From: Coemansia sp. RSA 487
Taxonomy: Eukaryota > Kickxellomycota > Kickxellomycetes > Kickxellales > Kickxellaceae
Direction of reading: 5' to 3'
DNA length: 64,000 nt
NCBI GenBank assembly: GCA_027577595.1
Contig: JANBRJ010000064.1
Coordinates: 34,674 to 98,673, forward strand
Part shown: in pieces, positions 8,354 through 30,297 of the stretch
How the letters are laid out: every line of letters starts with the position of its first letter
Numbering within the stretch: the stretch's first letter is position 1
Position numbers and translations under genes: made by a program
Notes under the pieces: generated by a model
What the model was told of the DNA's origin: nothing
Database searches by the model: none
Seen by the model: only the letters and a program-made list of their open reading frames with translations

Positions 8354-8854
8354 TTACTTCTTGTCAATTAGCACAATTGAAATTGCATCCTTGCTGTCCA
8401 TCTTGTGTTTTATATATGTGTCTCTGGGCTTGATCAGCGTCGATCCATAGGTCGCTTTGATGGTCTTTCCAGAGGAAACGTTCACTTGCATTATATCCAA
8501 CATATATTTGACATCCCTCATTATGTTGTCGTTGATAAATGTGTGAAGGTTTTCAACTTTGCCATTACATTTAAATTTGACATCAACAATATTGCACCAT
8601 AGAACTAGCGTTTTTCCATTTCCAAACTCATTAAGTCGCTTGTTAGGCAACGCCTTCACGGGTTTCCTGTAGCTGGATTCCGTATATATTTTAATCTTTC
8701 CAGCGTTTAAACACGTCTCAGCCTCTACCAATCTTGTTAAATAACTAATGTTCCTTTCAGTACTAGGATTAGGAATTATAATATCCAATGCCGGCTTTCT
8801 GTTGGTCTTTAAAAGAACGCTTTCAAACACATTGTGTTTCCTCGTAATAGACAT
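8354..8854 (-). CDS. Double ubiquitin-like-fold family protein A (unrecognised family)
   Basis: A 166-residue protein I cannot assign to a named family. It shares a clear pattern with the genes at 10099-10605 and 27828-28316: an opening strand V/I-x-L/V-KT, an NP turn near residue 29, LPNKRLN near 69, LxLWCNI near 83-88, a GK turn near 125, and a final strand after a DS pair. The shape repeats twice: two strands, a helix, a loop with a conserved Pro, then a last strand. The second half (KATYGSTLIKPRDTYI, then a strand) resembles the ubiquitin stretch that ends in the last two beta strands. I infer two tandem beta-grasp domains. No Gly-Gly end is present; it ends with Lys-Lys. Composition is Lys/Ile/Asn-rich, unlike the GC-richer neighbours. 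Function unknown. Confidence 0.62.
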   Translation of the reverse strand: MSITRKHNVFESVLLKTNRKPALDIIIPNPSTERNISYLTRLVEAETCLNAGKIKIYTESSYRKPVKALPNKRLNEFGNGKTLVLWCNIVDVKFKCNGKVENLHTFINDNIMRDVKYMLDIMQVNVSSGKTIKATYGSTLIKPRDTYIKHKMDSKDAISIVLIDKK

Positions 8855-9306
8855 TCGTACTAGCGTTTAAATGTTCCTAAAATTGCAAATATATAGCAGA
8901 ACTAAATAACTAGGAAGGAATGAATGGTTGAAACATGAAAAGTGGGGCGAATAGGAAATTCAAGGCATTTTATAGTGTCATTATCATCTTACATTTGCCT
9001 TTATTTATGTTATGTGTATTATGTATTACCTGGCTTGCTTTCCTTGGGTTGTCACCGACATCTAACATATTAAAGTCATCAATGCACAAAGAAGTACAAA
9101 TAGCAACCAAGAAGTCATTGCTGATGAAAATTTACAGATCCCGCCCAACTTCTTGTCCGCAGAAAGGACAAACAGCACATATTGTATATAGAAGCCTCGG
9201 ATAATTTGCTAACAATTATTTAATTAAAAGATACTTTGTATATAAGAAATAGTTTACTTTTTTTTTAAAAAACTACGCTTTACTGATGCATTATGCTATA
9301 AGCAGT
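8855..9306. other. Spacer upstream of family gene A
   Basis: AT-rich. On the minus strand a TATATAT lies at about 8888-8896, 35-40 bases before the ATG of gene A. I see no gene. Confidence 0.3.
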
Positions 9307-9805
9307 TTATTCCTTGTTGACAAGCTCAATAGTAATAGCTGCATTGCTGTCTATCGTATGTTTCACGCAATTGTAACAACATTTGATTTGCTTTAATCCA
9401 TACATAACTTTAATGGCTTTTCCGAATGCAGCTTTTGCATTCGTTAAAACAAGCGAAAGCTCAGCACCCTTAATCATGCTATCCCTAAGCAGAGTATACA
9501 CTTTTTTGTGCTTGTCTTTGTATTTATGCTTGACACAAACTATATTGCATTGCAGTATCAAGGTATTTCCATTGCTACAATTGTTAAGACGCAAGACTGG
9601 TAGCTCTTTTACACGTTCCTCGAATTCTGTCTCTGTATAAAGCTTAATTTTGAAAGTGCTTATCCCTCTAATATCCTTTATTAGAACTTTTAAATCGGCA
9701 AGTATTTTCAACGCTTGGTTCTGGAATTCTATTATTTAACACTAGCTTTCTCTGTGTCTCAAGGGCAACCATTTGAAGTACTGTGTGGTTCTCACTAGAA
9801 CTCAT
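9307..9805 (-). pseudogene. Double ubiquitin-like-fold family member B, frameshifted
   Basis: The long frame ends at 9307 and covers the region homologous to residues 32 onward of paralog A (RLNNCSNGNTLILQCNI, then the second domain to a final Asn-Lys-Glu). The missing N-terminus is immediately upstream in another frame. An ATG at 9805 gives MSSSENHTVLQMVALETQRK, followed by IPEPS, which matches the IPNPS of paralog A. The two frames join near 9726, where CCAAGCG has one base more than a continuous frame allows. So the copy is intact apart from a single-base shift at a short A run. Either it is a young pseudogene or the shift is a sequencing error. The WCNI hallmark has diverged to QCNI, which favours relaxed constraint. 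Confidence 0.6.
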
Positions 9806-10098
9806 TGGGTTTAATGCCAAAATAATATTCCAAACAGCAAGTATATTGTGGCACGAGATTCAATTACCGGATGTATTTTTACCATTATTTAACAGTATAC
9901 TACGCCAACATATGTGGGCCTGTCTTTTCCTTTTCCTTTTCCTTTTTTAGTTTTACGTAAGATGTTTTATTCATGTTAAACAGATAGTAAATTTAATAAC
10001 CATTAATATACTATAACAGCTAGTGCAAAATAAATGCCAAATTCCACTATATGAATCATTGTTAAACTTCATAAATGTACAGAGTTATATAGTCGGCT

Positions 10099-10605
10099 TT
10101 ATTTTTTGGGAACTATCTTGACAATGATAGTTGAGCCACTATCAATCTTATATTTACTATATGTGCCACCGGGACCAATATCTTTTGTTCCACATATTAC
10201 TTTGAGCTCCTTGCCTTCTGATATATTCTTTTTTGATATACCCAAAGTATCCTTGATATCATCATATACTTTTTCGGTAATCAAGCTGTATATTTTGTGA
10301 GTCTGCATGTGAAAAGTTAATGTTACCTTTATTATGTTGCACCAAATAGTCAATGATGTATTTCCAGTAACCCCATTTAAACGCTTGCTTAGCTGAATTG
10401 GTGTTTGTTTGGATTTAATGTAAGGCGAAACATAAAACAGCTTTATATCTCTTTCATCCACAGGCGTTTTGTCAGAAATAATATTGGTAATCTGATCAAA
10501 GTTCATAGCTGCATTGGGATTTGGTATTGCAAATTTAAGTGCTACTTTGTTATGTGTTTTTAGCACAATTGACTTTATAACTACATATTCTCTACGTGCC
10601 GACAT
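10099..10605 (-). CDS. Double ubiquitin-like-fold family protein C (unrecognised family)
   Basis: A 168-residue paralog of gene A in the same orientation. It has the hallmarks IVLKTHNKVAL, AIPNPN, SKRLNG, LTIWCNIIKV and the closing segment KIDSGSTIIVKIVPKK. The first half is strand-strand-helix-strand; the second repeats it (THKIYSLITEKVYDDIKD as strand plus helix, then the Gly/Pro loop GPGGTYSKYKI and a last strand). Length and spacing match the intact paralog at 27828-28316, so the gene appears full-length. No signal peptide, membrane segment or Cys pattern is seen, so it is probably a soluble intracellular protein. The tandem beta-grasp reading is an inference from strand pattern, not a recognised match. 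Confidence 0.62.
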   Translation of the reverse strand: MSARREYVVIKSIVLKTHNKVALKFAIPNPNAAMNFDQITNIISDKTPVDERDIKLFYVSPYIKSKQTPIQLSKRLNGVTGNTSLTIWCNIIKVTLTFHMQTHKIYSLITEKVYDDIKDTLGISKKNISEGKELKVICGTKDIGPGGTYSKYKIDSGSTIIVKIVPKK

Positions 10606-11890
10606 TGGTTCAAATAGTTTAATAATAAATCTCTGAAGGAAATAAAACTAAAAGTAGAAAAGAAAGCTTCAAACATTGTGGAATATATTTATGTTCTTAT
10701 AGCCATGATTTTTCCATCCTTTTGCTTTGGCTAATGGCTAATAATATGGTTACGTAGTGCTTTAATGTTGCAGTCCACAAATTTGTCTGGCCTAGGCTGA
10801 TTAAAATAGAAAAAGTCCCTCCCCAAAAAGATATTTTCATTTAACAAAAGCTTTGTAGCAAGCTAGAAAGCACAAAAAGGGGAAACCTAACTAACAGACC
10901 TTGAGATGCATTCCTTTCACATCTACTGGGTTGCCATACCGTGCAACATGCGTCAAACCAATGTCAATTGTTAAAAACATGTGTATTTGTGAATAAGTGT
11001 AAAATACACTTTTTTGTCTAGATACTAGATTTGAGCAAAGGTCAAGTGAAAAGACATGTCCTAAAGAGAGCTCAATTAATTTATCATTTGTTTGTGAAAT
11101 TATGATTGAGTTGATAAATACAATTAGCAACCTGGCCTAAAAGCACACAAACATATAATCATGAATATGCTATTTTTATTGGCGCATTTACTTGATACCT
11201 GCAGTTTTCTACTATGTATATTTCAATGGCTCTTCTGTTGTTGGAACCATCAATGATGACCTTGATCCTATATATGTACTTGCCGCAAACAAGACAGCAC
11301 CATAACAAACGAACTATACAATTTAGAATGAAGCAATCAAAAAGACAGACAATCCATTTGAAGGCCATTTCTTTAAGTAGTGACATTGCCATGTGAGTAT
11401 AGCTTTTGGGCGTTGAATCCTTCCATTGCCTACCAGATTTCCTTTACATGCTCAACAAGAAAAGGTTGTCGCAATGTCTGGTTCTTTCAACACAATACCA
11501 AGCCATTCAACTGGAAGCATGTTGTGGTCTCTATCCGTATCTCAGTTTGCGCTTATTTTCCTTCCTCTCTTTTTACTCAATAGAAAGGGCTTTTGTCATG
11601 CAGAAAAGGATATTGCTGATCAAGATGTTGGGTTTTCTTTTTATTTTGGATTAGTGTGTTTCTCTATCCAAATGTTGACTTTTTTCTTGTTCGCTGGATA
11701 AAACAGCTCTTTTATTTATTCAGCTCTTGAAGAAGCAAGAGAAATCGGATCCACCTCTTTCTTTTTTTCTTTTCGCCCTAGTTATTATTGTATTACAGTT
11801 TTTTTGCTTTCTTTTCTTTAATTATAATTTAAAGTTTGCAAGCAGAGTTTTTATATTTTTAAAGCAGGCTACTCAAGTGTAACATTAACA
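10606..11890. other. Gene-poor AT-rich interval
   Basis: About 1.3 kb between family gene C and the secreted-protein gene. Minus-strand frames at 10891-11130 and 11159-11392 and plus-strand frames at 11380-11701 have no recognisable domain and lack homology to the window's families that I can see. A long T-rich tract at 11755-11860 precedes the next gene and probably belongs to its promoter. Confidence 0.35.
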
Positions 11891-12883
11891 ATGCATCTAA
11901 AGCTGTCCAACAGGATGGGGTTTCTATCTCTAGTGGCAGTGTCTGCACGCCTGGGTAGCGCAACCATTCAACCTATGGCAAAGATTGGAGACAACCAACT
12001 TTATGCATCCAACTCGCCAGATGATACTTACTGGGGCTTGACTACAGCTGGTCTGTCAGTCAGCGGCCATGATTCCGCCTTTCCTCTTGACCGTACTTCT
12101 ACAGTTACTGTTGTTAGGGATATATCAGTGTGGACAGAGGTTGGTGGGAAGGATCCCAAGCCTTGGCTTGAAACACTGACACCAGATCCTGATATGGCAG
12201 ACACTGTCGAGAAACCAACACCTACTCCAGCAGATCCTGCAACTGTTACTACGACATTTCAGTCACTATCTGCAGCCACCGTTACAGCCGAACCCCCGGT
12301 ACAGCAGCCCCAGGTCACACAAGGACAGGGACCACAGCAACAACAAACTGCTACAGTCACCACGACACAAGTTTCAACAGTATCAGTAGTGACAACGGTT
12401 GTATCAACAATTATGCAAGATGTAACCCAGACTGTGACCCAAGCAGTAACTGGAATGCTGCAGCAACAGCCGAACATCCAGATGATCATGAACCAGCCCA
12501 CACAGGCTGCAGTGACCGTGACTGTGACACAGACAGAACAAGCAGCTGCTATGCCCCAATACATGCCTCAATACATGCCACAGTATATGCAGCCATATAT
12601 ACAACCAGTACCGCAGCCATATGTGTTTGTTATTGGCCAAAACGGAGGTGAAGGCCAAGGGTACCAGCAAGATAATGGCGGCTATGGCCAGCAAACGGCT
12701 ACTCAGCCACCTGAGACAATGCAAGAGCGACAGCCCACATCGTCGGCTCCTCCAACAATGGATCAGTTGGAACCTACTGCCACGGATATGTCTACTGAGG
12801 ATCTTGGTACACTTACCGTCTGGGTCAGCGTTACACACACTGTTGATGTTGATGGCACTACTGTAATGACTGCCGGCTATTAG
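11891..12883 (+). CDS. Secreted Thr/Val/Gln-rich surface-type protein
   Basis: A 330-residue protein with an N-terminal hydrophobic stretch (FLSLVAVSARLGSA) that could be a signal peptide cleaved near residue 24. A short ordered-looking part follows (DDTYWGLTTAGLSV, VVRDISVWTEVGG). The remainder is low-complexity, with many Thr-Val dipeptides (TATVTTTQVSTVSVVTTV), Gln blocks, and three MPQY repeats at about residues 221-232. Thr-rich segments are probable O-mannosylation sites, as in fungal cell-wall or secreted proteins. The end (HTVDVDGTTVMTAGY) has no hydrophobic GPI-attachment tail, so it is likely soluble or non-covalently wall-bound. A pyrimidine-rich promoter precedes the ATG. No named family is recognised. 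Confidence 0.68.
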   Translation: MHLKLSNRMGFLSLVAVSARLGSATIQPMAKIGDNQLYASNSPDDTYWGLTTAGLSVSGHDSAFPLDRTSTVTVVRDISVWTEVGGKDPKPWLETLTPDPDMADTVEKPTPTPADPATVTTTFQSLSAATVTAEPPVQQPQVTQGQGPQQQQTATVTTTQVSTVSVVTTVVSTIMQDVTQTVTQAVTGMLQQQPNIQMIMNQPTQAAVTVTVTQTEQAAAMPQYMPQYMPQYMQPYIQPVPQPYVFVIGQNGGEGQGYQQDNGGYGQQTATQPPETMQERQPTSSAPPTMDQLEPTATDMSTEDLGTLTVWVSVTHTVDVDGTTVMTAGY

Positions 12884-13191
12884 ATTTATAGCTGAACATT
12901 GGTTTTGGTATCAATTTAACTGAGACTTAAACCAGCTTTGATGCAATGGTTTATGTAGAAGGGCGTTCATATCAACTCATTTTTACCTTTTTTACTTTAT
13001 TTATATTTCTCATTGACATTTTGGCATATAGCTCAAGGTTTATACACTATGTAGGAGATGATCCACAGTAATTTAGCAACACAAAATCATAACTGCAAAC
13101 ATATGTTAACAAGGCATGAAAGCAAGAGAGAACAAAAGAACAAAAGAACGAAAGAAAGAAAGAAAGAAAGAAAGGGGAAAACCACAGTCGT
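12884..13191. other. Convergent spacer with GAAA microsatellite
   Basis: 3' flanks of two convergent genes. A tetranucleotide array of six GAAA units occupies 13150-13173, just beyond the GH81 stop. No gene is visible. Confidence 0.6.
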
Positions 13192-15447
13192 TTATTCTTC
13201 AGGCGCAGTGGCTACCCAGTAGTATGAGTTGGACGCCGAGTTCCCATCGTCATGGGCATTGATGTCCTTAATACGTTCAAACGCAGCCTGCTTGTCAACA
13301 ACCGCCAAAGAAAGGTCAATAATCTCGCGCCACTCTTGGGACTGCGAACCCTGCGACACGGCAGCCAGAAAGCGTGGCCAGATATCCGCAATCCATGCGC
13401 GCTTGAGAATCAAAGCCGATGCAGGCGTGTATGGAAGAAGCTGGATACCGTAGATGAACTCTGGGTTTGCGCCAAAGAAAGTGGCATAATCGACCTTGGT
13501 TGACCATAGGATCCCGACAATAGCTTTATCGTGCGCATACCTTGCAGGGTACAGCAGCGACTCGAGGTCGCCCAGATGCCAATAAGTACGTGTTGCGCGG
13601 GCTTCGAGCTGCAGCACCGCACGCATGTACTGGGCAAGCTGTGGACGGTCGGTGACCTGGGCGTACAGATAAGCGCCGTAGTATGCATTGATGGCCTCGG
13701 ATGTTGACTCTTGGTTGCGCGAGTCGGCAAAGGCAAACAGTCCGGCGGCCCACGAGTGGCCGTCAAACATGTCAAAGCACCGCATTGGCGGGAACGACAT
13801 ATCAGCCGTAGCTTGTGCGGTTGGCGTGCAGTAATCGCGCGCAAGAAGGTCAATGAAGGCGCGGCGGCGCTTGTCTAGCCATTGTGGACGCAGCCATGTA
13901 AGAACTGCTGCAGCGTAGACAAAGTAGCCATAGTGGAAGTGGTGGTCGTTGTACCGGCCCTGGCCAAAATCAGCACCTGGGTCGTGGAGCCCCGCACGGG
14001 TCACAATTCCACGCCATTCGGTGTCATACATAAGCTCGTTGCTGTTAGAGCCGCAAATCCAGGGCTCAACCCAGGCAGTCGCGCAATCCACTGCGTACTG
14101 GCAGCTTGCGTGGTCACCGACTTCATCGGCAATAAGCGCAATACGTGCCGCACGAGCCAAGGCTTTGCCAAAGAAATACGGATCCGGAGGAAGCACCGAC
14201 GGATCTTCAGGCAATGCCGCAGCATCTTTTGCTACAAGCTCGCGTAGTCGGTTGATGTGTGTAGGATCGGTGAGCGGCGTCGAACCAGAAAACCCAAGGC
14301 GCTCTATGCTCTCGATGAGGCGCCACTTGCGTCCCTGAACGGCATGCATCGGTCCCTTGGACGACCAAAACGGCCCCACTGCATCTTTACGCTGAATTCC
14401 GTCGTTGGCTATAGACTGTCGGTGGTGCGGCAGTGTGCACATCAGTGGGTCTCCGTGCCCGATGGTGGCCCAATTGAACTCGAACACCGCCTCATCGTCC
14501 AAAGTTTGCACATCGACACTTCCGCCAACAGGAACTGCATATCTAGCTGAGAGCAACACGCTGATCGCCTCATGCTTATTGTTGTTTTCAGGAACCATGG
14601 CAAGACGCATAGGGCCGTGGATAGGCTCGCTCGACTCGATGCGACTGCCATCGCACTGACGGAGAACAGTATTGCCTTCGTAGCAGATTAGCCATGTTGC
14701 GCCATTGTTGAGCTCAACGACAGCAGTGCCAGGCCCATAGGTAGCGCAATCGACTTGCAGAACGGCGTGCACGGATGCCAAGTCAAGTACAATTGGGCGA
14801 TTGAAGATGACAGTCGCAAAACACGAGCCCTTGACCAGTGGCACTGTAGCTGTGGCACTCTCATGGCTAATTGCAAGATCGTCGACAAAATCAACGGTGA
14901 CCGATAGGGTGTCGAATGCGGCAACTCTACGGTATGGACAAGTGGAGACACGAACCGTCCAGTCGTCATGCCAGACGGACGCCACAAAGCGTTCCTCCTC
15001 CAGCGGCGTCGGCGCGCACACGACTACGGCTCCTGCCAGACATTTGACCATGTATGGCGCTACGAGCACTGGCTGGTCGCCGTTCTCTACAATCAAATTC
15101 TCCCACCACGCGTTCGTTGGCACAGCGTGCGAAAGCAGCCGTGCATCGATAAGATCTCGTTTCACTTTATACGTGTTTGCGGCTACACGGCCGGTCGAAG
15201 GGTCTATGGTAGCGCATGGATCCTCGGAAGACCACAGCAGACTTATCGCATTCGTTTCGTGTGCCTCTTTACTGCCGGATTCACCAGTGTTGTCTGGACG
15301 TGGCGGAAGCTGGGGCGGCTTATAGCTTGGTATGACTGGCTGTGGCTCAACAGCATTGCTCTGATACTGCTGCTCAACAGAGCTGTTCTGGTGCTGTGGC
15401 GCAGAGAACTTTTCTGCGAGTCTGCGGATGCGGTCAGACAGCGGCAT
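13192..15447 (-). CDS. Endo-1,3-beta-glucanase, GH81 family, intracellular type
   Basis: GH81 enzymes cut beta-1,3-glucan, the main wall polymer. The family opening motif TNAWWENLIVENG and APYMVKC begin the N-terminal beta-sandwich domain. The catalytic (alpha/alpha)6 domain carries DHHFHYGYFVYAAA (about 13925-13950 on the minus strand), FDMFDGHSWAAGLF and ESTSEAINAYYGAYLYA, which hold the expected acidic catalytic residues. The frame runs up to a TTG at 15510, but the first ATG is at 15447, giving 751 residues that start MPLSDRIRRLAEKF. No signal peptide is present, so it resembles cytoplasmic Acf2/Eng2-type enzymes used in sporulation or wall turnover rather than a secreted one. An AG at the upstream TATAATAG could mark an intron and a missing first exon. 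A truncated relative lies at 41364-42482. Confidence 0.93.
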   Translation of the reverse strand: MPLSDRIRRLAEKFSAPQHQNSSVEQQYQSNAVEPQPVIPSYKPPQLPPRPDNTGESGSKEAHETNAISLLWSSEDPCATIDPSTGRVAANTYKVKRDLIDARLLSHAVPTNAWWENLIVENGDQPVLVAPYMVKCLAGAVVVCAPTPLEEERFVASVWHDDWTVRVSTCPYRRVAAFDTLSVTVDFVDDLAISHESATATVPLVKGSCFATVIFNRPIVLDLASVHAVLQVDCATYGPGTAVVELNNGATWLICYEGNTVLRQCDGSRIESSEPIHGPMRLAMVPENNNKHEAISVLLSARYAVPVGGSVDVQTLDDEAVFEFNWATIGHGDPLMCTLPHHRQSIANDGIQRKDAVGPFWSSKGPMHAVQGRKWRLIESIERLGFSGSTPLTDPTHINRLRELVAKDAAALPEDPSVLPPDPYFFGKALARAARIALIADEVGDHASCQYAVDCATAWVEPWICGSNSNELMYDTEWRGIVTRAGLHDPGADFGQGRYNDHHFHYGYFVYAAAVLTWLRPQWLDKRRRAFIDLLARDYCTPTAQATADMSFPPMRCFDMFDGHSWAAGLFAFADSRNQESTSEAINAYYGAYLYAQVTDRPQLAQYMRAVLQLEARATRTYWHLGDLESLLYPARYAHDKAIVGILWSTKVDYATFFGANPEFIYGIQLLPYTPASALILKRAWIADIWPRFLAAVSQGSQSQEWREIIDLSLAVVDKQAAFERIKDINAHDDGNSASNSYYWVATAPEE

Positions 15448-15770
15448 TGGCTGTTGAGTTGCGGAATATATAGGGGAAATGTTTGGAGTAAAAGGAAGCC
15501 TATTATACAAATTAAAAGTCGTAAATATCGTTTAATGAAGAGTAAAGAAGAAAACAGGAGTAGAGCTGGTGGTACACAGAAACACCCACAAGCGATCTGA
15601 GCTTTTCATCTGCGTGCGCCAAGACCCAAATATACGCGGACGAGGGGAGCGGCAGTTTCCGCCCAATGCCTTTCATAGAAAATCCCCCACACAATAGACG
15701 CGAACCAAAGCAAGACACATTAGGAAAAATAGAAAAGGATTATGTTGAAAAATACAAAAAAAAGCTAATT
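15448..15770. promoter_or_regulatory. Upstream region of the GH81 gene
   Basis: Spacer between the GH81 start and the kinesin stop, both genes on the minus strand. The minus strand carries TATATATTC at about 15467-15475, some 20 bases before the ATG. No gene is seen. Confidence 0.3.
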
Positions 15771-18659: not shown

Positions 18660-19108
18660 GTGAAAGGAACAGTAGAAACTAAGAAAAAAAAATAACAAGG
18701 ATGATTAATGTTGAAACAAGAATTTATCAAGGAGCTGATAAAGTAAGGGAAATAATAAAACAAGGAAACACTAAATAAAAAAGGGAGAAGTAAGAAAGTG
18801 ACGAAAAGGTAAACAATGGAATCCCACCGCTTTTTCAGCATATTTGCAAATCAGTGATAAATGCTATAGCTGATCAAGAAAAGTAAATACATTGAAAAAA
18901 TTTTGTTTACTTTTAATTAAGCGCTGATCAAATGCCAATCAAAAATACACGTGCTTTACCTCTGCCAACACCCAAACGTTGCCATATACACCTTAATTCA
19001 AAATGCAAGTATATTAGGAAGTGGTTATGTGGCTGTCTTCAGCTACTCACTTTGCTTTCTCTTTGTTTTCATTCGACAGAAATCCAAATACTATTTTTTT
19101 GGAAATAA
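18660..19108. promoter_or_regulatory. Divergent promoter, kinesin-10 / TRAX, with CACGTG and CCAAT
   Basis: About 450 bases between two divergent start codons. It contains a CACGTG E-box at 18948-18953 and a CCAAT at 18935-18939, 13 bases apart. These are binding sites for bHLH and CCAAT-binding factors in fungi. Function is inferred. Confidence 0.4.
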
Positions 19109-19951
19109 ATGGACCAGAACGCTGACGACCAGCGCGAAACCAAGCGTCCGCGTATTTATAACAACAAGCAGCGGGGCAAGGCAGTCAACAAGCAGCCCAT
19201 CGAAGATACCACAAACACAAGCATCACAAAGCAAGCGATTCTCAGCAGCTTCAAATCGTACCGTGATACACTGGACGCACACTACGACCAGCGCGAACGA
19301 GTAATCAAATGTTCACGGGACATTACAGCGCTAAGCAAAAAGATCGTGTTCACATTGCTTCGTATTACGCAAGACGGTCAGACACAAGTATTTGATGAGG
19401 CCGAGCGCAAACACAAGCAGGTGGTTGAATTGTTTGTCAAGATATCAAGTGATCTTCGGGGCACCGATGCCTACAAGTACAATGGACAAGCTACCCATGG
19501 AATCCAAGAATATATCGAGGCCTTGGGGCTATGGACGTTTTTGAAAGACAATAGACTGATTACTCGTGAGCAAGTGCTGGAGCGGTTGACTCCAGAAGGT
19601 GCTCAGGAGCCGCTGGTCAATGTTACTGAGTCGGATTATGTCTTGGGTATCTGTGACTTGCCCGGCGAGGTTAATAGGTTTTGCATCAACTCGATTGGGA
19701 AAGGCGACAGGGAGGCGGTTAAGCGGTGCGTGGCGTTCTTGCGTGTGATGAAGGAAGGTGTGGCCTTGCTTCTGTGCAGCGGAAAGATCAAGGACTTGGA
19801 CAAGAAGTTCGAGGTTCTTGACAGCAGTCTAAGCAAAACGGAAGCGGCATACTACTCGATGTCGATCAGGGAAGGCGAGATGAGCGCAATGGATGTTGAC
19901 GCACCACCACCACCCAGCAGTGGCAATCAGGCGGTAGCTGCAGCAGAATAG
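19109..19951 (+). CDS. Translin-associated protein X (TRAX), C3PO endoribonuclease subunit
   Basis: A 280-residue all-helical translin-family protein. The N-terminus carries a basic nuclear-localisation-like patch (RETKRPRIYNNKQR), typical of TRAX and not translin. The core has ILSSFKSYRDTLDAHYDQRERVIK and the signature GIQEYIEALG and GICDLPGEVNRFCINS. The four acidic residues that form the RNase site of TRAX in C3PO correspond to Glu134, Glu137, Asp183 and Glu187 here, and all are present, so the protein should be catalytically competent with a translin partner. Translin itself is not in this window. The tail ends in a low-complexity PPPPSSGNQ segment. Divergent from kinesin-10; convergent with the MFS transporter 58 bases away. 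Confidence 0.92.
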   Translation: MDQNADDQRETKRPRIYNNKQRGKAVNKQPIEDTTNTSITKQAILSSFKSYRDTLDAHYDQRERVIKCSRDITALSKKIVFTLLRITQDGQTQVFDEAERKHKQVVELFVKISSDLRGTDAYKYNGQATHGIQEYIEALGLWTFLKDNRLITREQVLERLTPEGAQEPLVNVTESDYVLGICDLPGEVNRFCINSIGKGDREAVKRCVAFLRVMKEGVALLLCSGKIKDLDKKFEVLDSSLSKTEAAYYSMSIREGEMSAMDVDAPPPPSSGNQAVAAAE

Positions 19952-20009
19952 AGATTTATTTTACCTGGCGGATAACAAAATATAAATTTGTGAGTGAGAG
20001 ATAAGGGGT

Positions 20010-21554
20010 TTAGAGTTTGTATCGGAAATCTGGGTGGTTGTCGGCCAGATCGAGCACCTGTTCAGGCGTCAAGAGCGAGATGTCGGCGGGCGAGCGATCG
20101 CGCCTGGCGTTCTCCGAGCGCAAGATAATGTAGAGAACCAGCGTCGCAACGGCAGCCACCACCGTCATACCGAGACAGACCGAGTGGCCAAGCACAAACT
20201 TTGGACTGTCCTTGTCGCGGTACACAAAAGCTGTAGCCAACGGACCAAGTCCACCGACAGCAGACGAGAATGCGGCAGCCATGGCGGGCTTTGTGTTGCC
20301 TTGTAGGTTGGCCAGCATCCACGCAGGTGCATGGGCAGCTGGCTGCGGCGACGCAAAGCTGAACAAGAAAAGAGCGACCATGCGCGCAGCATTCGACTGC
20401 GACGCCAGCGCCAGAACAAAGCCAACGGCGGTAATTGCGTTGGAGAGCCACAGAGCGCGCGCAGAGCCGCCGGTCAAGCGTGCCACATACGCGATGCTTG
20501 CCATACCGGAGGTTGACATCAGGTTGGTCAGCGACGTCATTGCTTGCGCAGCCACCGGCGAAAACCCTTGGCTTGCGATGATTGTCGGTCCAAACATGCC
20601 GTTGACTTGCGTGGCTCCGTTCGCGCAGAAGGCAATAGCCGCCCAGAGCCATACTTTATGGTCGGCTACCGCCATTCCTATTTGCCGCAGGCTGACCGAC
20701 TGCGTGCTGGCCACTGTGTTCTGCCGCACCATGATGCGTGTTATCAGGAGCCGCTCCTCATCGGTGATAAAGGTAGCAGTGTCTGGGTAGTCTTGCAGGA
20801 CGCGCGGGCCAAGCGTCGACCAGACAGCGCTGCACGCTCCGGCGACAATGAATATCAGCTGCCACGATGCAATGTGGCTGCTGTGGATGGCTGACAGCCC
20901 GGAGCACAGCGGACCGACGAGGATCCCGCCGACGCCGGAGCTTGCAAAGAACCACCCGGTGCGCCGGCGCACGAGGTTCCGCGGATACCAGTATGAGATG
21001 TAGTACAGGCTTCCCGTCAGATACCCTGCTTGCACGGCGCCGAAGGCAAAGCGTAAGCCGGCCAGGTCGCCAGGCGTCCTTGACAGAGCCATAAACATAA
21101 CCACTGCTGACCACGCCGCCATAGATGCGCTGAGCCACCAGCGCGGCTGTGTCCGCTTGAGAATTATATTCGATGGCAGCTGGAAAAGGAAGCTTCCGAT
21201 GTAGTAGGCACCCAGAGCTACATTGATGTCGTATCCGCTGAGCCCCAAGTCGTCCGTCAACCCCGCTACCTTGGCGTACGATAGTGCCATCTTGTTGATC
21301 GAGTCCAGTGCGTAGCCGATGCACAGGTACAGCAGCAGTCGTCGGTCGCACTTGCGTACATACGAGGCAAGAACTCCCTTGTCCTTTTCCGTCAGCTCCA
21401 GAGGCTTGTTGACATCGCCTGCTTCGCTCTCTCTGCATTCTCTACTTTCGCTAGCTGACATGCTTGCGATTGCTGGTCTGCGGTTAAGCGGCTGGCGTTC
21501 ATCCATGCTTCTGGTTGAGTATTGGTGTTGATCGGATGGCGGGGGTGGCGGCAT
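20010..21554 (-). CDS. Major facilitator transporter, anion:cation symporter (Dal5-like) type
   Basis: A 514-residue membrane protein with about 12 hydrophobic segments, starting at the ATG at 21554 (MPPPPPSDQHQYS); the frame upstream to a TTG is non-conserved. Motifs fit the ACS subfamily of MFS: CIGYALDSINKMALSYA in helix 1, LPSNIILKRTQPRWWLS in the loop 2-3 region, RFAFGAVQAGYLTGSLYYIS, and YPRNLVRRRTGWFFASSGVGG. The central loop has LGPRVLQDYPDTATFITDEER. Fungal relatives import organic acids, vitamins such as nicotinate or pantothenate, or allantoate; the substrate cannot be told from sequence. It is divergently paired with the DM9 gene. Confidence 0.87.
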   Translation of the reverse strand: MPPPPPSDQHQYSTRSMDERQPLNRRPAIASMSASESRECRESEAGDVNKPLELTEKDKGVLASYVRKCDRRLLLYLCIGYALDSINKMALSYAKVAGLTDDLGLSGYDINVALGAYYIGSFLFQLPSNIILKRTQPRWWLSASMAAWSAVVMFMALSRTPGDLAGLRFAFGAVQAGYLTGSLYYISYWYPRNLVRRRTGWFFASSGVGGILVGPLCSGLSAIHSSHIASWQLIFIVAGACSAVWSTLGPRVLQDYPDTATFITDEERLLITRIMVRQNTVASTQSVSLRQIGMAVADHKVWLWAAIAFCANGATQVNGMFGPTIIASQGFSPVAAQAMTSLTNLMSTSGMASIAYVARLTGGSARALWLSNAITAVGFVLALASQSNAARMVALFLFSFASPQPAAHAPAWMLANLQGNTKPAMAAAFSSAVGGLGPLATAFVYRDKDSPKFVLGHSVCLGMTVVAAVATLVLYIILRSENARRDRSPADISLLTPEQVLDLADNHPDFRYKL

Positions 21555-22150
21555 CTTTGCACTTATAACAGATTGATGCAAAAGGCAGTAAACAGCCAAT
21601 AAGTGCAATTATGTATGAAATGTAGATAAGCAATGGATAATATATCTCTATCAAGTGCTAAAGTGATAAAAAAGAATATACAGAATGCATTGGAATGGGC
21701 AATAGGAGAGAGAAAGATGAAGGTTGGCACTGTGACACACTCCCTCTTTCTATGTTGCCATCTCCTTCACATCTCAAATCTCCACGTAACATCATCTAGC
21801 CAAGAGCTTTTTGACAGATAGGGTAAAAAAAAATAATGATGCTGAGAAGCCAGGTGCTGGACGACACGTGTCCTATGTGTCTTCTGAGAGCTAATTAATT
21901 TGAACTGCGTCAATAACGAGTCAAGCGATGTTGATTCTTGTTCAAGGATAAGGGGGAAGGCGATCTTTTAGAAATACAAATATAATCGAAAGCGCATTGC
22001 ATTTGCTGCAATCAAAACGAGAATCTCAAGCTTCCCCCTCCTCTATCTCTCTCTTCACGCTTGCTCAAATAGCCTCCTATCTTTCTTGTTCATCCACTTT
22101 TCTGTATATATCCTCTCCTCCAAGCGAAATCCATTCGACATTCAAAACAA
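21555..22150. promoter_or_regulatory. Divergent promoter, MFS transporter / DM9 protein, with palindromic E-box
   Basis: About 600 bases. A perfect 10-base palindrome GACACGTGTC lies at 21863-21872 with CACGTG at its core. A long CT-rich tract at about 22030-22110 lies upstream of the DM9 ATG, typical of highly expressed fungal genes. No gene is visible. Confidence 0.42.
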
Positions 22151-22648
22151 ATGAGCAACCAACTGAACACCGAGGACAACGGAGGTTTGCGGTGGGTCGA
22201 TGCAAGCAACGGCCAGATCCCACAGGGCGCACTTGCCCAAGGCGTCGACAATACAGGCCAGCTCCTGTTCATTGCCCGCGGCGCATACAAGGGCGGAATA
22301 CACCCAGGAAAAGCAGCACCGCATGTACCGGACGGCGGGTTCCAGCTGAGCTGGGGCGGGCGGGCGCACTCGCTCAACAAATACCAAGTATTGTGCGGCG
22401 ACATTGAGCGCACTCGCTGGGTGCCTGTGCGAGGGTCCGTGCAAAGCCTGCTAGATAGGAAAATTCATCTGGTGCATGGCGGGAATGAGGCTGACGGCTC
22501 GACGCCGCTGTTTGTCGCCAAGACGCAAGTGGGCGGTGCGGTGACTCTGGGCAAAAGCGGCTCACATATTTGTGCTGGCATGAGCTATCCAGACGCTACT
22601 GGTGCTGAGCAGAACGAATCGAAATACTTGGTGCTGGCATACGCGTAG
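22151..22648 (+). CDS. DM9-repeat (DUF3421) protein
   Basis: A 165-residue protein made almost wholly of two DM9-type repeats. It shows LRWVDASNGQIPQGALAQG, then LLFIARGAYKGGIHPGKA, then AHSLNKYQVLCGD, which is the normal order of a DUF3421 domain (Trp-Gly start, Phe-Ile-Ala-Arg-x-x-Tyr, His-Pro-Gly-Lys, and a Tyr-x-Val-Leu end). The second half repeats it: WVPVRGSV, PLFVAKT, GAVTLGKSGSHICAG, SKYLVLAY. No signal peptide is present, so it is cytosolic. DM9 proteins in insects and molluscs include mannose-binding lectins linked to infection responses; the fungal role is unknown. The complete two-repeat form agrees with a single compact domain. Confidence 0.85.
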   Translation: MSNQLNTEDNGGLRWVDASNGQIPQGALAQGVDNTGQLLFIARGAYKGGIHPGKAAPHVPDGGFQLSWGGRAHSLNKYQVLCGDIERTRWVPVRGSVQSLLDRKIHLVHGGNEADGSTPLFVAKTQVGGAVTLGKSGSHICAGMSYPDATGAEQNESKYLVLAYA

Positions 22649-22742
22649 TTTCTCTGGTTTCATATTAAATAAAGAAAAGAAAAAAGAAAGTGACTACAAT
22701 AATAATGGATGTTGTGTTTTGAGCAGTGGTGCTATGTCTGCT

Positions 22743-23666
22743 TCATGTTTGCCCGCCCAGGTGCTGTGACCACCATTGTCTGAACGGCACGTAGCCTACG
22801 TTTATCCCGGCTCTCTCAAGCGCTCCAGTTGACATTTGGGCGTTCTTCGGACGCTCCACACCATCGCTCTTTTGCTGCTCCGTCAGCGGCACCAGTGTGA
22901 CGTCGCTGATTTTGAGGATGTCGGCCAGAACCACACACATATCGTACCTGGTCAGCATCTCCGTTGGCGCAAACTGGAACACACCTGCAATATCTGCACG
23001 CTTATCGCTGCAGCTCTTTGCTGTCATGTCCACAAGCACCCTGGCGACATCGTCGATACACACGGGGAACCTGTGCTGCCACGCATCGACCTCGACAGTC
23101 TTGCCACGACTCTGGTCAAGCATCTTGATTATCCCGCCAAACGTGGACTCTGCAGGATCCACAGTCTTGCCATACAACAGAGGCACACGCAAGACCGCCG
23201 CTGCAGCGGGGCACGCGTCCAGAACAGCACGCTCTCCGTCAAGCTTTGTCTGTCCGTAAAAGTTCAGCGGATTCGGCTCGCTTTCCTCTGTGTACGGCGG
23301 GTTGCGTCCGTCAAACACGTATTCTGTCGATACATACATAAAGAACGCCCCTGCTTCGCGTGCCAAGCGTGCAAGTTGTCCAGACACGGTTACGTTGAGC
23401 AGCTCGGCGCTCGCGCGGTTGGCTGCGGCTGCTTGCGGGTTCTTTTCAACCGCACAGTGGATTATAGCGTTTGGTCGTTCGCTGGCTATAAATTCCTTGG
23501 TTGCCTCGTAGTTGGTCAGATCCAGCGCAACCAGGCCACCGGCAGCTCTTCGGAACGCTGTGCCAATGACATTGTATCCACAGCGTTTGGCTTCCTTGAC
23601 CACGGCGCGACCCAGCAGCCCGGATGCGCCAGTCACAACTACCTTTATCTGACTGTTTTGGCTCAT
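22743..23666 (-). CDS. MAT2B-like NAD(P)-binding regulatory protein of methionine adenosyltransferase
   Basis: A 307-residue short-chain dehydrogenase-like protein of the RmlD/MAT2B group. The Rossmann motif VVTGASGLLGRAVV lies at about residues 10-23, STEYVFDG near 113-120, and the YxxxK pair is Tyr137 and Lys141 (YGQTKLDGE). The combination of RRAAGGLVALDLTN, IIHCAVEKNP, AELLNVTVSGQLA and DAWQHRFPVCIDDVAR is close to MAT2B, the beta subunit that tunes S-adenosylmethionine synthesis, rather than to bacterial dTDP-rhamnose reductases. The catalytic alpha subunit is not in this window. Head-to-head with LCMT1, a SAM user, 336 bases apart. A rhamnose-pathway reductase is the alternative. Confidence 0.85.
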   Translation of the reverse strand: MSQNSQIKVVVTGASGLLGRAVVKEAKRCGYNVIGTAFRRAAGGLVALDLTNYEATKEFIASERPNAIIHCAVEKNPQAAAANRASAELLNVTVSGQLARLAREAGAFFMYVSTEYVFDGRNPPYTEESEPNPLNFYGQTKLDGERAVLDACPAAAAVLRVPLLYGKTVDPAESTFGGIIKMLDQSRGKTVEVDAWQHRFPVCIDDVARVLVDMTAKSCSDKRADIAGVFQFAPTEMLTRYDMCVVLADILKISDVTLVPLTEQQKSDGVERPKNAQMSTGALERAGINVGYVPFRQWWSQHLGGQT

Positions 23667-24002
23667 TTGTCGATATTTAACGAATAGGTAAACCTGCTGT
23701 AGTAAGAGCTGGGGATCCCTGGCAAAAGAAATAAAAGGCGCAGAAACAAAGAGCTGAAAGACGGATGGATGAACGAACGCTTTGCTGGCTCTTCAGACGA
23801 ACGCTTTCATACCCTAATCCGCATCCACCATCATCTTTGCATTGGCTCAAAGCTGACTTTTGGCTGGCAAAAGTCTTTTTTGCTTCCCTTCAGCTCCGTC
23901 GTCTGCACTGGTACTGCACGTTTACTGTATTATTCACTTGTTTAAGAAGACGAGAAAAGGCCAAAACTGATAGCCACTACAACAGAATTATCAAGACCTT
24001 GC
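23667..24002. promoter_or_regulatory. Divergent promoter between the MAT2B-like and LCMT1 genes
   Basis: The 336 bases separate the two start codons and must hold both promoters. No unambiguous TATA box. The pairing of a SAM-synthesis regulator with a SAM-dependent methyltransferase suggests shared control. Confidence 0.4.
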
Positions 24003-25022
24003 ATGGAGAACAGAGCGCCGGGACGCCGTAGCCCAAATAACAACAGCGACGCAGCAGTCCAGGAAACTAGCAACGACGCCGCAGTCAGCAGAGAGTCAGC
24101 AGCGCGACTCGGGTACATCGACGACCCGTGGATTGGGTCGTTTGTCAAGTATCCGCAGCGGCGCGCCCCGCTGATCAACCGTGGCACGTACAGCCGGTTC
24201 CACGGCATTCAATGTGCGCTTAAGCGGTTTGCCGAGGCGATCCACTCGACCCAGGAGCCGCAAACAGCAGGCGACGCTTCAGTGATCGGCCAAGTAGTTG
24301 TGCTTGGCGCAGGGATGGATACCTCATTCTTTTTGCTGCCTGAGAAGCAGCGGACGGCCGTTCGGTTCTTTGAAATCGACTTTCCAGACATTACCGCAAA
24401 AAAGGCAGCAACCATTTGGCGCAAACGCGCCTTGCGCTCGATGCTCCCCGCTGACACCGCAGTAGTCGCTGGCGGAACCGAATTGCACTCGAATACATTC
24501 AACTTGCTAGCGGCTGATCTGCGCGACTTTGAATCAACTGTTGTCCCCAAACTGCACAGCCGTGGGTTCGATAGCTCCCGTCCTACTTTATTCATCAGCG
24601 AATGCGTGCTCATATATCTGGACCCTGAGCACTCGGATGCCATCCTCGACTGGATTACGCACAATGTGCCCAGCGCCGGAATCATCACATACGAGCAAAT
24701 TCTGCCTGATGACCGGTTTGGCCAGATGATGATCGAGAATCTACGGTCCCGCGGCCTGGAGCTCCGCGGTTTGCATGCGTACCCTACGCTCGAGTCCACA
24801 GCCCAACGGTTTCTATCCCGCGGCTGGCACACGGCACGCGCTGTTGATTTGGCCGACTACCACGATACTTGCGTCGAGCCCAGCGAGCGTGAGCGTCTCG
24901 CGCGCATTGAATTCCTGGACGAGTGGGAGGAGTTCAGGCTGCTCGCCCGTCACTATGCCTTCACATTTGCATGCACTAGCGACTCGCATCCATTTACTAC
25001 TGCCTTAAAATATCTTTTATAA
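24003..25022 (+). CDS. Leucine carboxyl methyltransferase 1 (PP2A methyltransferase)
   Basis: Methylates the C-terminal leucine of the PP2A catalytic subunit, using SAM, and so controls which regulatory subunits bind. The 339 residues hold the family features in order: LGYIDDPWIGSFVKY, RAPLINRGTYSR, the SAM loop VVLGAGMDTSFF near residue 100, RFFEIDFPDI, LLAADLRDF, FISECVLIYLDPEHSD and the tail LDEWEEFRLLARHYAFTFA. All are diagnostic of LCMT1/Ppm1 and not of the larger LCMT2/Tyw4, which adds a kelch-like domain missing here. The N-terminal 35 residues are low-complexity. Head-to-head with the MAT2B-like gene. Confidence 0.94.
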   Translation: MENRAPGRRSPNNNSDAAVQETSNDAAVSRESAARLGYIDDPWIGSFVKYPQRRAPLINRGTYSRFHGIQCALKRFAEAIHSTQEPQTAGDASVIGQVVVLGAGMDTSFFLLPEKQRTAVRFFEIDFPDITAKKAATIWRKRALRSMLPADTAVVAGGTELHSNTFNLLAADLRDFESTVVPKLHSRGFDSSRPTLFISECVLIYLDPEHSDAILDWITHNVPSAGIITYEQILPDDRFGQMMIENLRSRGLELRGLHAYPTLESTAQRFLSRGWHTARAVDLADYHDTCVEPSERERLARIEFLDEWEEFRLLARHYAFTFACTSDSHPFTTALKYLL

Positions 25023-25110
25023 AAGCCGCTAAGTCTGTATTCATGTTGATGCAAATAAATATAATATTTAAAAAACAACTAACTTGTAATGAGGTTGCCT
25101 ATTTTTCTCT

Positions 25111-25656
25111 CTACACGAGGAAAGCAAAAACAAGGAATGCTACGCCTATACCTCCCGTGAAAGCATTAAATATTGTGACAACGAGAAACGCAGTATGACC
25201 GGAAATATTCGGCGTCTTCCGCGTACCCTGGATCTCGATGTCATTGCCGTACTGGTTTTTGTACAGAGCTTCCAACACAGAGTCCGAAAACAAGAAGCAC
25301 ATCATGACAATGTACAGGATACCAATGCAAAAGAACGTAACAGGATTGCTGTCAGGAAACTTGAAGTGCCATACCCACCGATTTCCAGGCTGAAAGCACC
25401 ACGCAACACAAAGAGCCCAGAACAGGCAGCACACATGCTTGGCTATCTGTGCGTTATATGAAAACTCTCCAAGCCACGTACACACATATACGCCAATTAT
25501 ACATGTTGACGCTAGCGTCATGAGAAACACAAGCCAAGCAGCTACAACGAACGCTGTTTTTCGTGGTGGTGCTACCGGGTCTGTGCTCGCTGGCGCTGGA
25601 TCTCCAGCCTCCTCAACCACTGGTGCCTCATTTCCTTCCACATCTTCGCTTGGCAT
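25111..25656 (-). CDS. Four-helix membrane protein of unknown function
   Basis: A 181-residue protein with an acidic, Pro-rich N-terminus (MPSEDVEGNEAPVVEEAGDP) and four hydrophobic helices: VVAAWLVFLMTLASTCIIGVY, HVCCLFWALCVAWCF, VTFFCIGILYIVMMCFLF and FLVVTIFNAFTGGIGVAFLV. A polar loop with GNDIEIQGTRKTPN separates helices 3 and 4. The layout (cytosolic N-terminus and four helices) is like MARVEL-type or tetraspan membrane-organising proteins, but I see no decisive motif. Convergent with LCMT1, 88 bases between stops. Confidence 0.66.
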   Translation of the reverse strand: MPSEDVEGNEAPVVEEAGDPAPASTDPVAPPRKTAFVVAAWLVFLMTLASTCIIGVYVCTWLGEFSYNAQIAKHVCCLFWALCVAWCFQPGNRWVWHFKFPDSNPVTFFCIGILYIVMMCFLFSDSVLEALYKNQYGNDIEIQGTRKTPNISGHTAFLVVTIFNAFTGGIGVAFLVFAFLV

Positions 25657-26885
25657 TTTATTATTATTCTACCTTGTTGGCTTTAAATATTCGGGGCGGT
25701 TATTCGCTTTTTATGTAGCCGTGCTCCTTTATCCGCTTTTTATTTTGACTGTATCTTGTTGTACTAGTAAAGAATTTGTACAGTAATAAATAGCCTAGCT
25801 ACTAACTGAATATCTTCTATAGAAGTATAAACTATAAATATGCAAATAGCTAGACTGTAAAAGTAAAGACAAAAGATGAAAGAAAACACATGTTTGCTCT
25901 AACCACAACTGTCCTATTCCTCCATTCTGTTCTTAATAAAGTTGTACATTTAGAATATGTGTGTCTCTTTGAACTCCGCCTTTATACAAAATGTACAGGC
26001 TTATAAAGAAAATGTCCATTTGACACAACAAATAGCCAAAAGAAAAAAGATTTATAGAAATAAAAAGAACACTTTATTCAAATGAGCGCACGCAATCCAT
26101 AAAGAATCGCTGTTTTTTGCACATGTGGATATTTACACTCTATTGCTTAATCGAGTAAAAAAAAGAACAGATAGCACAGCATTTAATATGGCTTTTTGCC
26201 AGCTTGTTTTTATGAAAACCCTGCTATTTAGTGCTTGGTTTAAACATTTTGCATTTTAGTGTTCTCTTTCACTGTGAAAAACAGCAAAAAGTTGGAAATA
26301 TCAGCGCCTTCTCCCCTCAAGCAATTGTACATTTTGGCGTATTTTTTATTTCACAGTTAATATGTAGTAATTGCTAAACATGTTTGTTGGAACCTATGCA
26401 CATGCTTACCTGCCTTCAACTTCTAATCTACCAACGGTAATAACTATACCTCTTGAAAACGTGTAAAAAGGGAAAAACGCACCCTCAAACTTTGTACACG
26501 TATGTGTTTGTAAGGAGCCTTTCTATTTCATATTGCTTTTGCTCGATTTAGCCTTTGATCCACATGTCAGCGGATTCCTCCAGCTTGTTTTCCATTTTAA
26601 TCGCCCTTATACTCTATATGTAAAGGAGGTGTTGCTAATGACAAAATCCCCTTTGAAAATATATACGTGCCCCATCTCTATCTGCGAACATGCGTGTTTT
26701 CAAAGTAAGCATGTATAAATTGGTTTGACCTCAATACAGTGCTGACCATTTACAAATAATAGGATGGTTGAGATTTGTGACTATAAAGACACACGAGTTT
26801 TTCATTAAGAAACTAATATTTTACTACAATTATTCTTCCTATTCTGCTCTTGAATAAATAAAAAACCCATCAAACACTTGCACAA
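25657..26885. other. Gene-free AT-rich interval
   Basis: About 1.2 kb. Only short frames occur (for example a TTG-initiated 61-codon frame at 26533-26718) and none has recognisable features. Its start includes the promoter of the four-helix membrane protein. Confidence 0.4.
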
Positions 26886-27352
26886 ATGATTACTACCGAT
26901 AGCCAACTTATGGTCAATACTATTAACTTGATAGCCTGTAAGAAAGTCGTGCTTTCAATAAAGTATCAATGACATTAAAGTACACATTAGCCAGTAAACA
27001 GGGAAGATGAAAGACATAGAACTGTATTGTCTTCCTCGTAAGGTAGCTTCCAAAAAGATGAAAATAGATCCAACGAAAAAACTTTACGCAATTGTAAACA
27101 AAGGGGCTTTGGCATTCTTTTAATATTACCAAAGCAAATCTTAGCTATGAAAAGAATATTGTGTCTGCTTATGTATTTATTGATGGCAAAATCTATGGAA
27201 ATGTCAACGATGCATTTTCATTTTCCCCATATACAATTTCTAAATCTAGAAAGCCCTGTATAAGCTACGGCAAAATTTCTATTAGTCCCAAGCATACATA
27301 TTTGCAATTTAATATTGACAGTGATTCCACTATTGTTGTCAAGATTCTTCCC
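26886..27352 (+). pseudogene. Decayed double ubiquitin-like-fold family member D
   Basis: Homology to the family is spread over three frames. ATG at 26886 opens a frame with TINLIACKKVVLSIKYQ, matching the first two strands of paralog C. A frame shift then leads into INDIKVHISQ, a stop, and TGKMKDIELY, which matches IDDVKKLMLSKTSLDKEDIDLY of paralog E in position. A second shift near 27090 leads into NITKANLSYEKNI and DGKIYGNVNDAF, and finally DSDSTIVVKILP, the counterpart of DSGSTIIVKIVP in paralog C. At least one nonsense codon (26995-26997) and two frame changes make this a relic. It sits 476 bases before the intact paralog E in the same orientation, which suggests an old tandem duplication. 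Confidence 0.6.
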
Positions 27353-27827
27353 GGCATTCAGGATTGTAATTATTCAGGTATATTATTGCATTCAATTTCG
27401 CATATTTTCAAACGAGTACCATGCATTTTTTTCGCAGATGGGCACTACTTTAAGACCCGATACTAGAAATAAAATAATAATGGTTACTTCTTTCTTTGAT
27501 GGGGACACAAAGCAGACATTTTCTTTATAGTTCTCTTTGAAAAAAGCAAACAAATTTAAACAAATAAGGATTTTTTTACAGTCAAACCTACCCAGTCAAT
27601 TGCGTCAGAAATTCTTTCAAACAATACAAATAAAAATAACCAACTGTTTTTTTACGTTTTCATCAAGCATTCCATAGACAACCTATCCTGCTCGCGCAGG
27701 GAAAAGCTATAAAACCTTGAAGTGTTTCCATTCAAAATTGCATCTAACAATGCATTGACAATATTGTTTTACCTAAGGATATTTGCATATTTAATTGTTT
27801 AATTATTAGCAATACCACAAGCTAAAA
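27353..27827. promoter_or_regulatory. Upstream region of family gene E
   Basis: AT-rich spacer. A TATTTAA lies at 27788-27794, 34 bases before the ATG of gene E. The residual open frame of the relic runs to about 27466 without homology. Confidence 0.35.
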
Positions 27828-28316
27828 ATGAGCAAGGTCGTTGTCAGGACGGTTAGTGTTAAAACCAAGAACAAAGTCATCTTCAGCTTTGACCTAACTA
27901 ACCCTAGTAACGATACAAAAATTGATGACGTGAAGAAACTGATGCTTAGCAAGACAAGCTTGGATAAGGAGGACATTGATCTTTACCATGTTTCCTTTTA
28001 CAGCAAACGAACAAAGCCATTACCAAATATGCGGCTTAACGAGCTTGCAAAAGCCAAGCATTTGACCCTATGGTGCAACATTATAAAAGTAAAGTATCGA
28101 TTTGGTTCCGCATCTAGTACATTATATTCTTTCATCGATGACAAGGTAATGGATGATGTTGAGGAATTCCTATTCATAAAGCATATCAAGGTTCCATCTG
28201 GTAAGAAAACCAAGGCTGCCTGCAACAGTAAAGTGTTTAAACCATCCGATACATTTTTATCCTGTGGATTGGACAGTGAAATTACCATTAATGCTGAACT
28301 TGAAGACACAAAGTAA
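27828..28316 (+). CDS. Double ubiquitin-like-fold family protein E (unrecognised family)
   Basis: A 162-residue intact paralog of genes A and C, on the opposite strand and 17 kb away. It starts with a strand (VVVRTVSVKTKNKV), then FSFDLTNPSND, a helix IDDVKKLMLSK, EDIDLYHVSFY, LPNMRLNEL and LTLWCNIIKVKY. The second half repeats the order, with SSTLYSFIDDKVMDDVEEFL as strand plus helix, the Gly-Lys turn PSGKKTKA, the loop KVFKPSDTFL and a closing strand EITINAEL. This is the clearest member for the tandem beta-grasp reading: both halves look like ubiquitin's strand-strand-helix-strand-strand layout with the usual large hydrophobics. There is no terminal Gly-Gly, so if ubiquitin-like it would be a non-conjugating type. 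Function unknown. Confidence 0.65.
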   Translation: MSKVVVRTVSVKTKNKVIFSFDLTNPSNDTKIDDVKKLMLSKTSLDKEDIDLYHVSFYSKRTKPLPNMRLNELAKAKHLTLWCNIIKVKYRFGSASSTLYSFIDDKVMDDVEEFLFIKHIKVPSGKKTKAACNSKVFKPSDTFLSCGLDSEITINAELEDTK

Positions 28317-28386: not shown

Positions 28387-29028
28387 TTACTCGGCAGAAT
28401 ACGATGCAAGAGAGGGGTTGGCCAGCATTTTCTTGTACACCTTGTTTATTCCCGGTGTGTTTTCCTCGCTAAAGAGCTCGAGCAATTCGGGAGCCACGCT
28501 GTAAAAGGTAGAACGCATCGAGTAGACGCCTGCAAAGGCGGCAATATCAACATACGTGGTTTCTGAGCCAAAATAGTGGCCATTGGATCCATTCTCTTTC
28601 AGCACCTTTTCGTGCATTCTGGTTACGTACCCGGCGACTGATTTAAGCTTATTCTGAAGCGCATCCTTGGCTTCTTCGTTTGCAGCAAACTTTATTTGTC
28701 CGCAAAGGTCGTTTATGTCTTTAATGTGTGAACGTAGCTCATTCTGGCGAGCCACAGCCTTTAAATCGTCTGGCTTGAAGTAAAACCCATGCTTTGCCGC
28801 TAGGTACTGCTCAATAGCCAAAGATTCGCCTAGAACAAACGGCTCATCGCTCGAAGCGCTGCTTGAGCTTTCAATAAGCACTGGGACCTTGCCGACTGGC
28901 TGTGCGTCCTTTTCTTGGGGCCAGGCTGGTGACTCCAGCTTCCAGTCAGCACCGCTTAAAGTAAGGAGCACTTTGGTTGTCTCGGCACGGGCGGCAATGG
29001 GGAAGTAGCGTAGAGTGTACGAAGACAT
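28387..29028 (-). CDS. Sigma-like glutathione S-transferase 1 of the tandem cluster
   Basis: A 213-residue cytosolic GST. The N-terminal thioredoxin-like domain begins SSYTLRYFPIAARAE, with the probable catalytic Tyr at residue 8, cis-Pro in QPVGKVPVL, and SLAIEQYLAAKHG. The helical domain has RQNELRSHIKDI, HEKVLKENGSNGHYFG and a DIAAFAG helix containing the conserved Asp. Sigma-type GSTs detoxify electrophiles or reduce peroxides using glutathione. The gene is 70 bases from family gene E, convergent with it. A GCTAGC-TATA arrangement lies at 29159-29174 upstream. Substrate unknown. Confidence 0.9.
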   Translation of the reverse strand: MSSYTLRYFPIAARAETTKVLLTLSGADWKLESPAWPQEKDAQPVGKVPVLIESSSSASSDEPFVLGESLAIEQYLAAKHGFYFKPDDLKAVARQNELRSHIKDINDLCGQIKFAANEEAKDALQNKLKSVAGYVTRMHEKVLKENGSNGHYFGSETTYVDIAAFAGVYSMRSTFYSVAPELLELFSEENTPGINKVYKKMLANPSLASYSAE

Positions 29029-30209: not shown

Positions 30210-30282
30210 GGCTTTTAACTAAATAGAAAAGTATGGAACAGCTGGGAGACGACGAATGAGGACAGCAGGTTTTCAGGAGCCC

Positions 30283-30297
30283 CTTAAATAAGCTAGC
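30283..30297 (-). promoter_or_regulatory. GST2 core promoter element (GCTAGC next to TATTTAAG)
   Basis: Reads GCTAGCTTATTTAAG on the minus strand. It lies about 75 bases upstream of the GST2 ATG and matches the arrangement before GST1. Confidence 0.45.

Follow-up and report, generated by a model that had tools for sequence, protein, structure and literature searches.

What do three small, related genes on a single contig of the kickxellacean fungus Coemansia sp. RSA 487 encode? They lie in a stretch of 64,000 nucleotides, hereafter the window (contig JANBRJ010000064.1, here C64, positions 34674-98673), of a genome that we searched at its full extent (17,787,467 bases, 184 contigs). A preliminary description, made from the letters of the window alone, had proposed that these genes and two broken relatives form a family of tandem, non-conjugating ubiquitin-like (Ubl) proteins. 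As it had stated, all three intact genes are open from ATG to stop, i.e., copy A (P0001, 166 aa, 8354-8854, minus strand), copy B (P0002, 168 aa, 10099-10605, minus strand) and copy C (P0003, 162 aa, 27828-28316, plus strand), and their homology is confirmed by tblastn within the window, where the three pairs match at E 6.5e-30, 3e-27 and 6.4e-26 with identities of 38, 37 and 34%. The open reading frames (ORFs) and their alignment divide each protein into a domain 1 (approximately 8576-8854, 10321-10605 and 27828-28094 in copies A, B and C, respectively) and a domain 2 (approximately 8357-8590, 10102-10335 and 28080-28313). Structure prediction and profile comparison support a predicted tandem beta-grasp, i.e., ubiquitin-like, architecture for these copies.

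The beta-grasp reading of each half had been drawn from the spacing of its strands and helix, with structure prediction of copy C and profile searches named as checks, and the former agrees with it. The full-length AlphaFold2 (AF2) model of copy C (pLDDT 78.8, pTM 0.64) matched di-ubiquitin, ISG15, FAT10 (7pyv_C among the top Foldseek matches) and SUMO by Foldseek and VIA, while VIA on its second half placed SUMO1 first, with SUMO, parkin and ubiquitin tied in Z. The first half of copy A, modelled alone, had ISG15 as its best match by Foldseek and VIA; copy B was not folded separately. According to these models and structure searches, the beta-beta-alpha-beta-beta order and the Ubl fold are present in each half, at low model confidence in domain 1. 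Compared by hhalign with ten Ubl domains of the same genome, the first half scored 17.7 (20.1 with a fourth row), which none of 200 column shuffles reached, and the second half 15.4, reached by 3 of 200, with reversed profiles at 7.1-10.2; both halves align in the ubiquitin register, the first over just 27-28 columns. These ten sequences came from overlapping lists of 19 PF00240 and 12 PF11976 matches, of which 13 were extracted; L021, L026 and L035 were excluded from these because the extracted sequences had stops or a wrong frame, and the ubiquitin repeats L016-L019, together with L024, L029-L031, L036-L044 and L046, did not enter the alignment. Against PDB, the second-half profile retrieved FAT10 first (E 0.014), and of its nine rows five were FAT10, all one protein and so one independent match, and one a redesigned ubiquitin.

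The sequence hallmarks reported earlier are present in a looser form than claimed. A DS pair is found in all three intact copies, as are L-x-[LI]-WCNI and RLN, but the strict LxLWCNI and LPxxRLN hold in two of three, copy B having LTIWCNI and QLSKRLN instead. No intact copy ends in Gly-Gly (0/3), the sole GG being internal, at residue 146 in domain 2 of copy B, and each stops a few residues past the last strand without a tail. Both features support the non-conjugating character proposed before: activation by an E1 and cleavage by deubiquitinases (DUBs) would not be expected, and action would thus be non-covalent. Nor is the canonical Leu8-Ile44-Val70 patch bound by ubiquitin readers conserved among the copies in the hhalign register. 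In domain 2, the residues at ubiquitin position 44 are A/T/I and those at position 70 E/V/K (copies C/A/B), whereas position 44 of domain 1 is aromatic throughout (Y/Y/F in copies C/A/B, and Y too in a decayed copy and in a distant relative on contig C118, both described below). An invariant Trp of domain 1 would occupy position 70 in all three copies, as placed by strand register rather than by residue-level structural alignment. This Trp could form a docking face, or else contribute to an interdomain contact, the role given to Phe41 of ISG15 in excerpts of PMC8764230.

We envisage the products as small intracellular proteins of a fast-evolving birth-and-death family, in which two Ubl domains would follow each other without a linker, the last strand of domain 1 continuing directly into the first strand of domain 2. 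Such free, rigid di-ubiquitin-like modules most probably bind their partners non-covalently, as adaptors or competitive decoys, and would do so by a surface that either is distinct from the Leu8-Ile44-Val70 patch or is a modified form of it. That the copies act as free, non-conjugated adaptors or decoys is in our judgement rather probable; the fold is the firmest part of this proposal, while the non-covalent mode and the partner are what we infer.

The two broken genes of the preliminary description were recovered by profile as decayed copies (hmmsearch of stop-to-stop pieces). One, at 9310-9859 on the minus strand, consists of a piece with the start of domain 1 (9671-9859, E 4e-4) and one with the remainder (9310-9735, E 7e-25) in differing frames, and is 40% identical to copy A across 114 residues. 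The other, at 26998-27463 on the plus strand, likewise combines the end of domain 1 (26998-27120, E 0.03) with a domain 2 (27098-27463, E 7.5e-12) in another frame, and was also found by tblastn with copy B as query (E 8e-10). With two of five local copies decayed, the locus shows a birth-and-death pattern. In pairwise comparison of the intact copies, 44-50% of codons differ at the first position, 36-41% at the second and 65% at the third, and this asymmetry between second and third positions (McNemar p = 9.2e-7, 1.4e-7 and 1.5e-5 for the three pairs) indicates selection on the protein and thus real coding genes. Synonymous change is saturated by NG86 and nonsynonymous divergence (dN) is 0.58-0.66, so the copies are either old or fast-evolving.

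Several results weigh against a functional tandem Ubl family. Of the five full-length models, a single one was confident (78.8; the next reached 50.6, the others less), and the domain 1 model from copy A is weak (pLDDT 62.4). The profile search, successful for the second half, gave no Ubl for the first, where Csm5 (E 0.4) was the only PDB match. The hhalign probabilities, though above those of shuffles, are low (2-11%). No Pfam model of the ubiquitin family matched any copy; PF00240 matched neither the full copies nor their halves at E <= 10, with no match on C64 at E <= 0.001. The profiles of domains 1 and 2 show no mutual similarity that would suggest that either half arose as an internal duplicate. 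Lipocalin_7 matched the second half of copy B (E 3.1e-4; 0.0014 for the whole protein), under its cut-off of 25.4 bits. Codon usage of the copies, moreover, resembles that of non-coding DNA: third-position GC is 0.45, 0.30 and 0.44 in the intact copies and 0.44 in the C118 ORF, low for this genome region, as compared with a GC of 0.38 in non-ORF DNA and a third-position value of ~0.6 in most neighbouring ORFs.

These last values, closer to non-ORF DNA than to most neighbours, together with the loss of two local copies in five, would also fit an account in which the fold is right but the genes are dying or nearly functionless, i.e., low-expressed duplicates with a relict ubiquitin-like fold. 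We regard this as unlikely: three frames remain intact despite ~63% protein divergence, the asymmetry between codon positions 2 and 3 is strong in all three pairs, and the termini are short and clean.

Less probable still is descent from RENi proteins (Rad60, Esc2 and NIP45), in which truncated copies would act in the SUMO pathway through SUMO-like domains. Excerpts of PMC549199 describe these proteins, fungal ones included, as a polar low-complexity N-terminal region followed by two non-conjugatable SUMO-like domains, and this likeness, as well as the rank of SUMO1 at the head of the second-half VIA list, speaks for such an origin. However, SUMO, parkin and ubiquitin are equal in Z there, likeness to the SUMO fold being common to every Ubl, and the sequence profiles favour FAT10; Rad60-SLD (PF11976) matched neither the copies nor any part of C64; and the copies lack the polar N-terminal region, domain 1 starting ~10 residues or less from the protein start. 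Fungal RENi proteins, furthermore, have dozens of interdomain residues where the copies have none, and the genome holds another candidate for this role, a 488-aa ORF on contig C156 (L035) that matches Rad60-SLD close to its C-terminal end.

That the proteins are not ubiquitin-like at all, e.g., a lipocalin or fatty-acid-binding beta-barrel, appears very improbable, as the Lipocalin_7 match concerns one of three copies and half of the profile only, and neither the two models nor the profile had any such structure among their listed PDB matches. Least credible of all is a Crinkler-type N-terminal Ubl serving as a host-acting effector module, for although Crinkler N-termini are ubiquitin-like and carry an LxLxxx strand motif, the copies stop after the second Ubl without an effector domain and PF20147 did not match them; its one match in the genome, on contig C6, was below threshold (E 0.079).

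Among known systems, the tandem Ubl proteins offer the closest parallels to the free, non-conjugated modules that we favour. FAT10 (ubiquitin D) also packs two Ubl domains into ~165 aa and is the best PDB profile match of the second half, but it is its N-terminal domain that matches there, and FAT10 is conjugated, with UBA6 as its E1 (excerpts of PMC11354881), whereas the copies have no Gly-Gly. ISG15, the best structural match of domain 1 alone, is a tandem Ubl of similar length, yet it carries LRLRGG, is conjugated and belongs to vertebrates (excerpts of PMC9722776). The closest precedent in mode, a mode that for the copies is deduced, is mammalian OASL, whose Ubls lack LRLRGG and, as proposed in excerpts of PMC8764230, bind RIG-I non-covalently as mimics of poly-ubiquitin; OASL has an OAS domain ahead of its Ubls, whereas the ORFs of the copies comprise two Ubl halves only. 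Bacterial BilA has two consecutive ISG15-like Ubl domains but, as excerpts of PMC11354881 describe, its processing exposes a reactive glycine at the C-terminus, and its operon also encodes E1, E2 and DUB; nothing of this kind was seen here, no genome search for E1 or E2 having been made. The family is thus not shown to belong to ISG15/FAT10, RENi or Crinklers, and we class it as a variant among the tandem Ubl proteins, one that would act like a non-conjugating tandem Ubl.

How far does the family extend? Whole-genome searches with each intact copy returned the window loci, an ORF of 186 aa at C118:17573-18130 and one weak match on contig C155 (E 0.53), which we rejected as it falls within a long unrelated frame, and nothing else. 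The C118 ORF recovers copy C in the reciprocal search (E 0.0074). When 1,004 sequences, including 1,000 shuffled and 2 reversed ones, were ranked by the three-copy profile, it came out on top (E 6.3e-4 vs. 0.0045 for the best shuffle), and by these comparisons it is probably a distant member on a different contig. Elsewhere, at L031:1492-1965 on contig C14, the first half of a 158-aa ORF (P0004) matches PF00240 below cut-off (E 4.2e-5) and appears by eye to run on into a second Ubl-like half, perhaps a separate, unrelated orphan tandem Ubl; as a family member it was rejected, its own-genome search returning itself only and its rank under the family profile falling outside the top rows.

Beyond this genome, no protein relatives were found at E <= 10 among 5.8 billion proteins, many Kickxellaceae included (19 candidates for P0003 and 757 for alignment A1). 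As a control, the translin-family protein at 19109-19951 had 78 database matches besides its own copy, of which 37 bear Kickxellaceae genus names, and is 78% identical to a Coemansia erecta protein, so the Kickxellaceae are represented in the database; these matches also place the host in this family, in or close to Coemansia. Nevertheless, copies A and B have no 5-residue words in common and copies A and C one, which makes a word-based search weak for this family, and the Ubl ORFs of the window itself were not returned among database proteins, so unannotated orthologues would escape as well; the absence of relatives is thus weak evidence. A viral origin received no support from the viral_contigs scan (342 pattern matches, 0 confirmed), the structure matches among viral proteins being ubiquitin or Ubl proteins, i.e., a common fold only. 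In open-licence literature on Kickxellomycotina, early-diverging fungi, and Coemansia with ubiquitin topics, we found no description of this family.

We speculate, with little confidence, that this is a Kickxellaceae-restricted free tandem Ubl that mimics di-ubiquitin in genetic conflict, e.g., with a virus, a mobile element or a competing fungus. It would then be the fungal equivalent of ISG15/OASL, having lost conjugation and bearing an altered aromatic docking face (Tyr/Phe 44 and Trp 70 of domain 1). The tandem Ubl proteins named in the excerpted literature are vertebrate ISG15, FAT10 and OASL, bacterial BilA and the longer RENi proteins. If our reading is correct, a tail-less free tandem Ubl in an early-diverging fungus would imply that di-ubiquitin-like modules repeatedly arise or diverge outside conjugation, and would offer a compact system for studying their binding partners. 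The family changes fast and was missed by Pfam and annotation, and three paralogues sufficed for fold prediction to place it.

As for the surroundings, self-blastn gave no flank match among the copies that would indicate duplication at the DNA level. An inverted dispersed repeat of 140 bp (9847-9983 with 61570-61708, 71% identity) has one copy between copy B and the neighbouring decayed copy. Adjoining copy C on the minus strand are three tandem-duplicated genes resembling glutathione S-transferases (GSTs) (28387-31151), with DNA identities of 64-72% among them and Pfam GST domains in both of the two scanned; between two of these genes lies a possible scrap of a copy (29396-29542, plus strand), not significant by profile (E 0.95). 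Farther along, a 228-aa ORF at 36824-37510 on the minus strand, with no Pfam match and a third-position GC of 0.39, may be another orphan gene.
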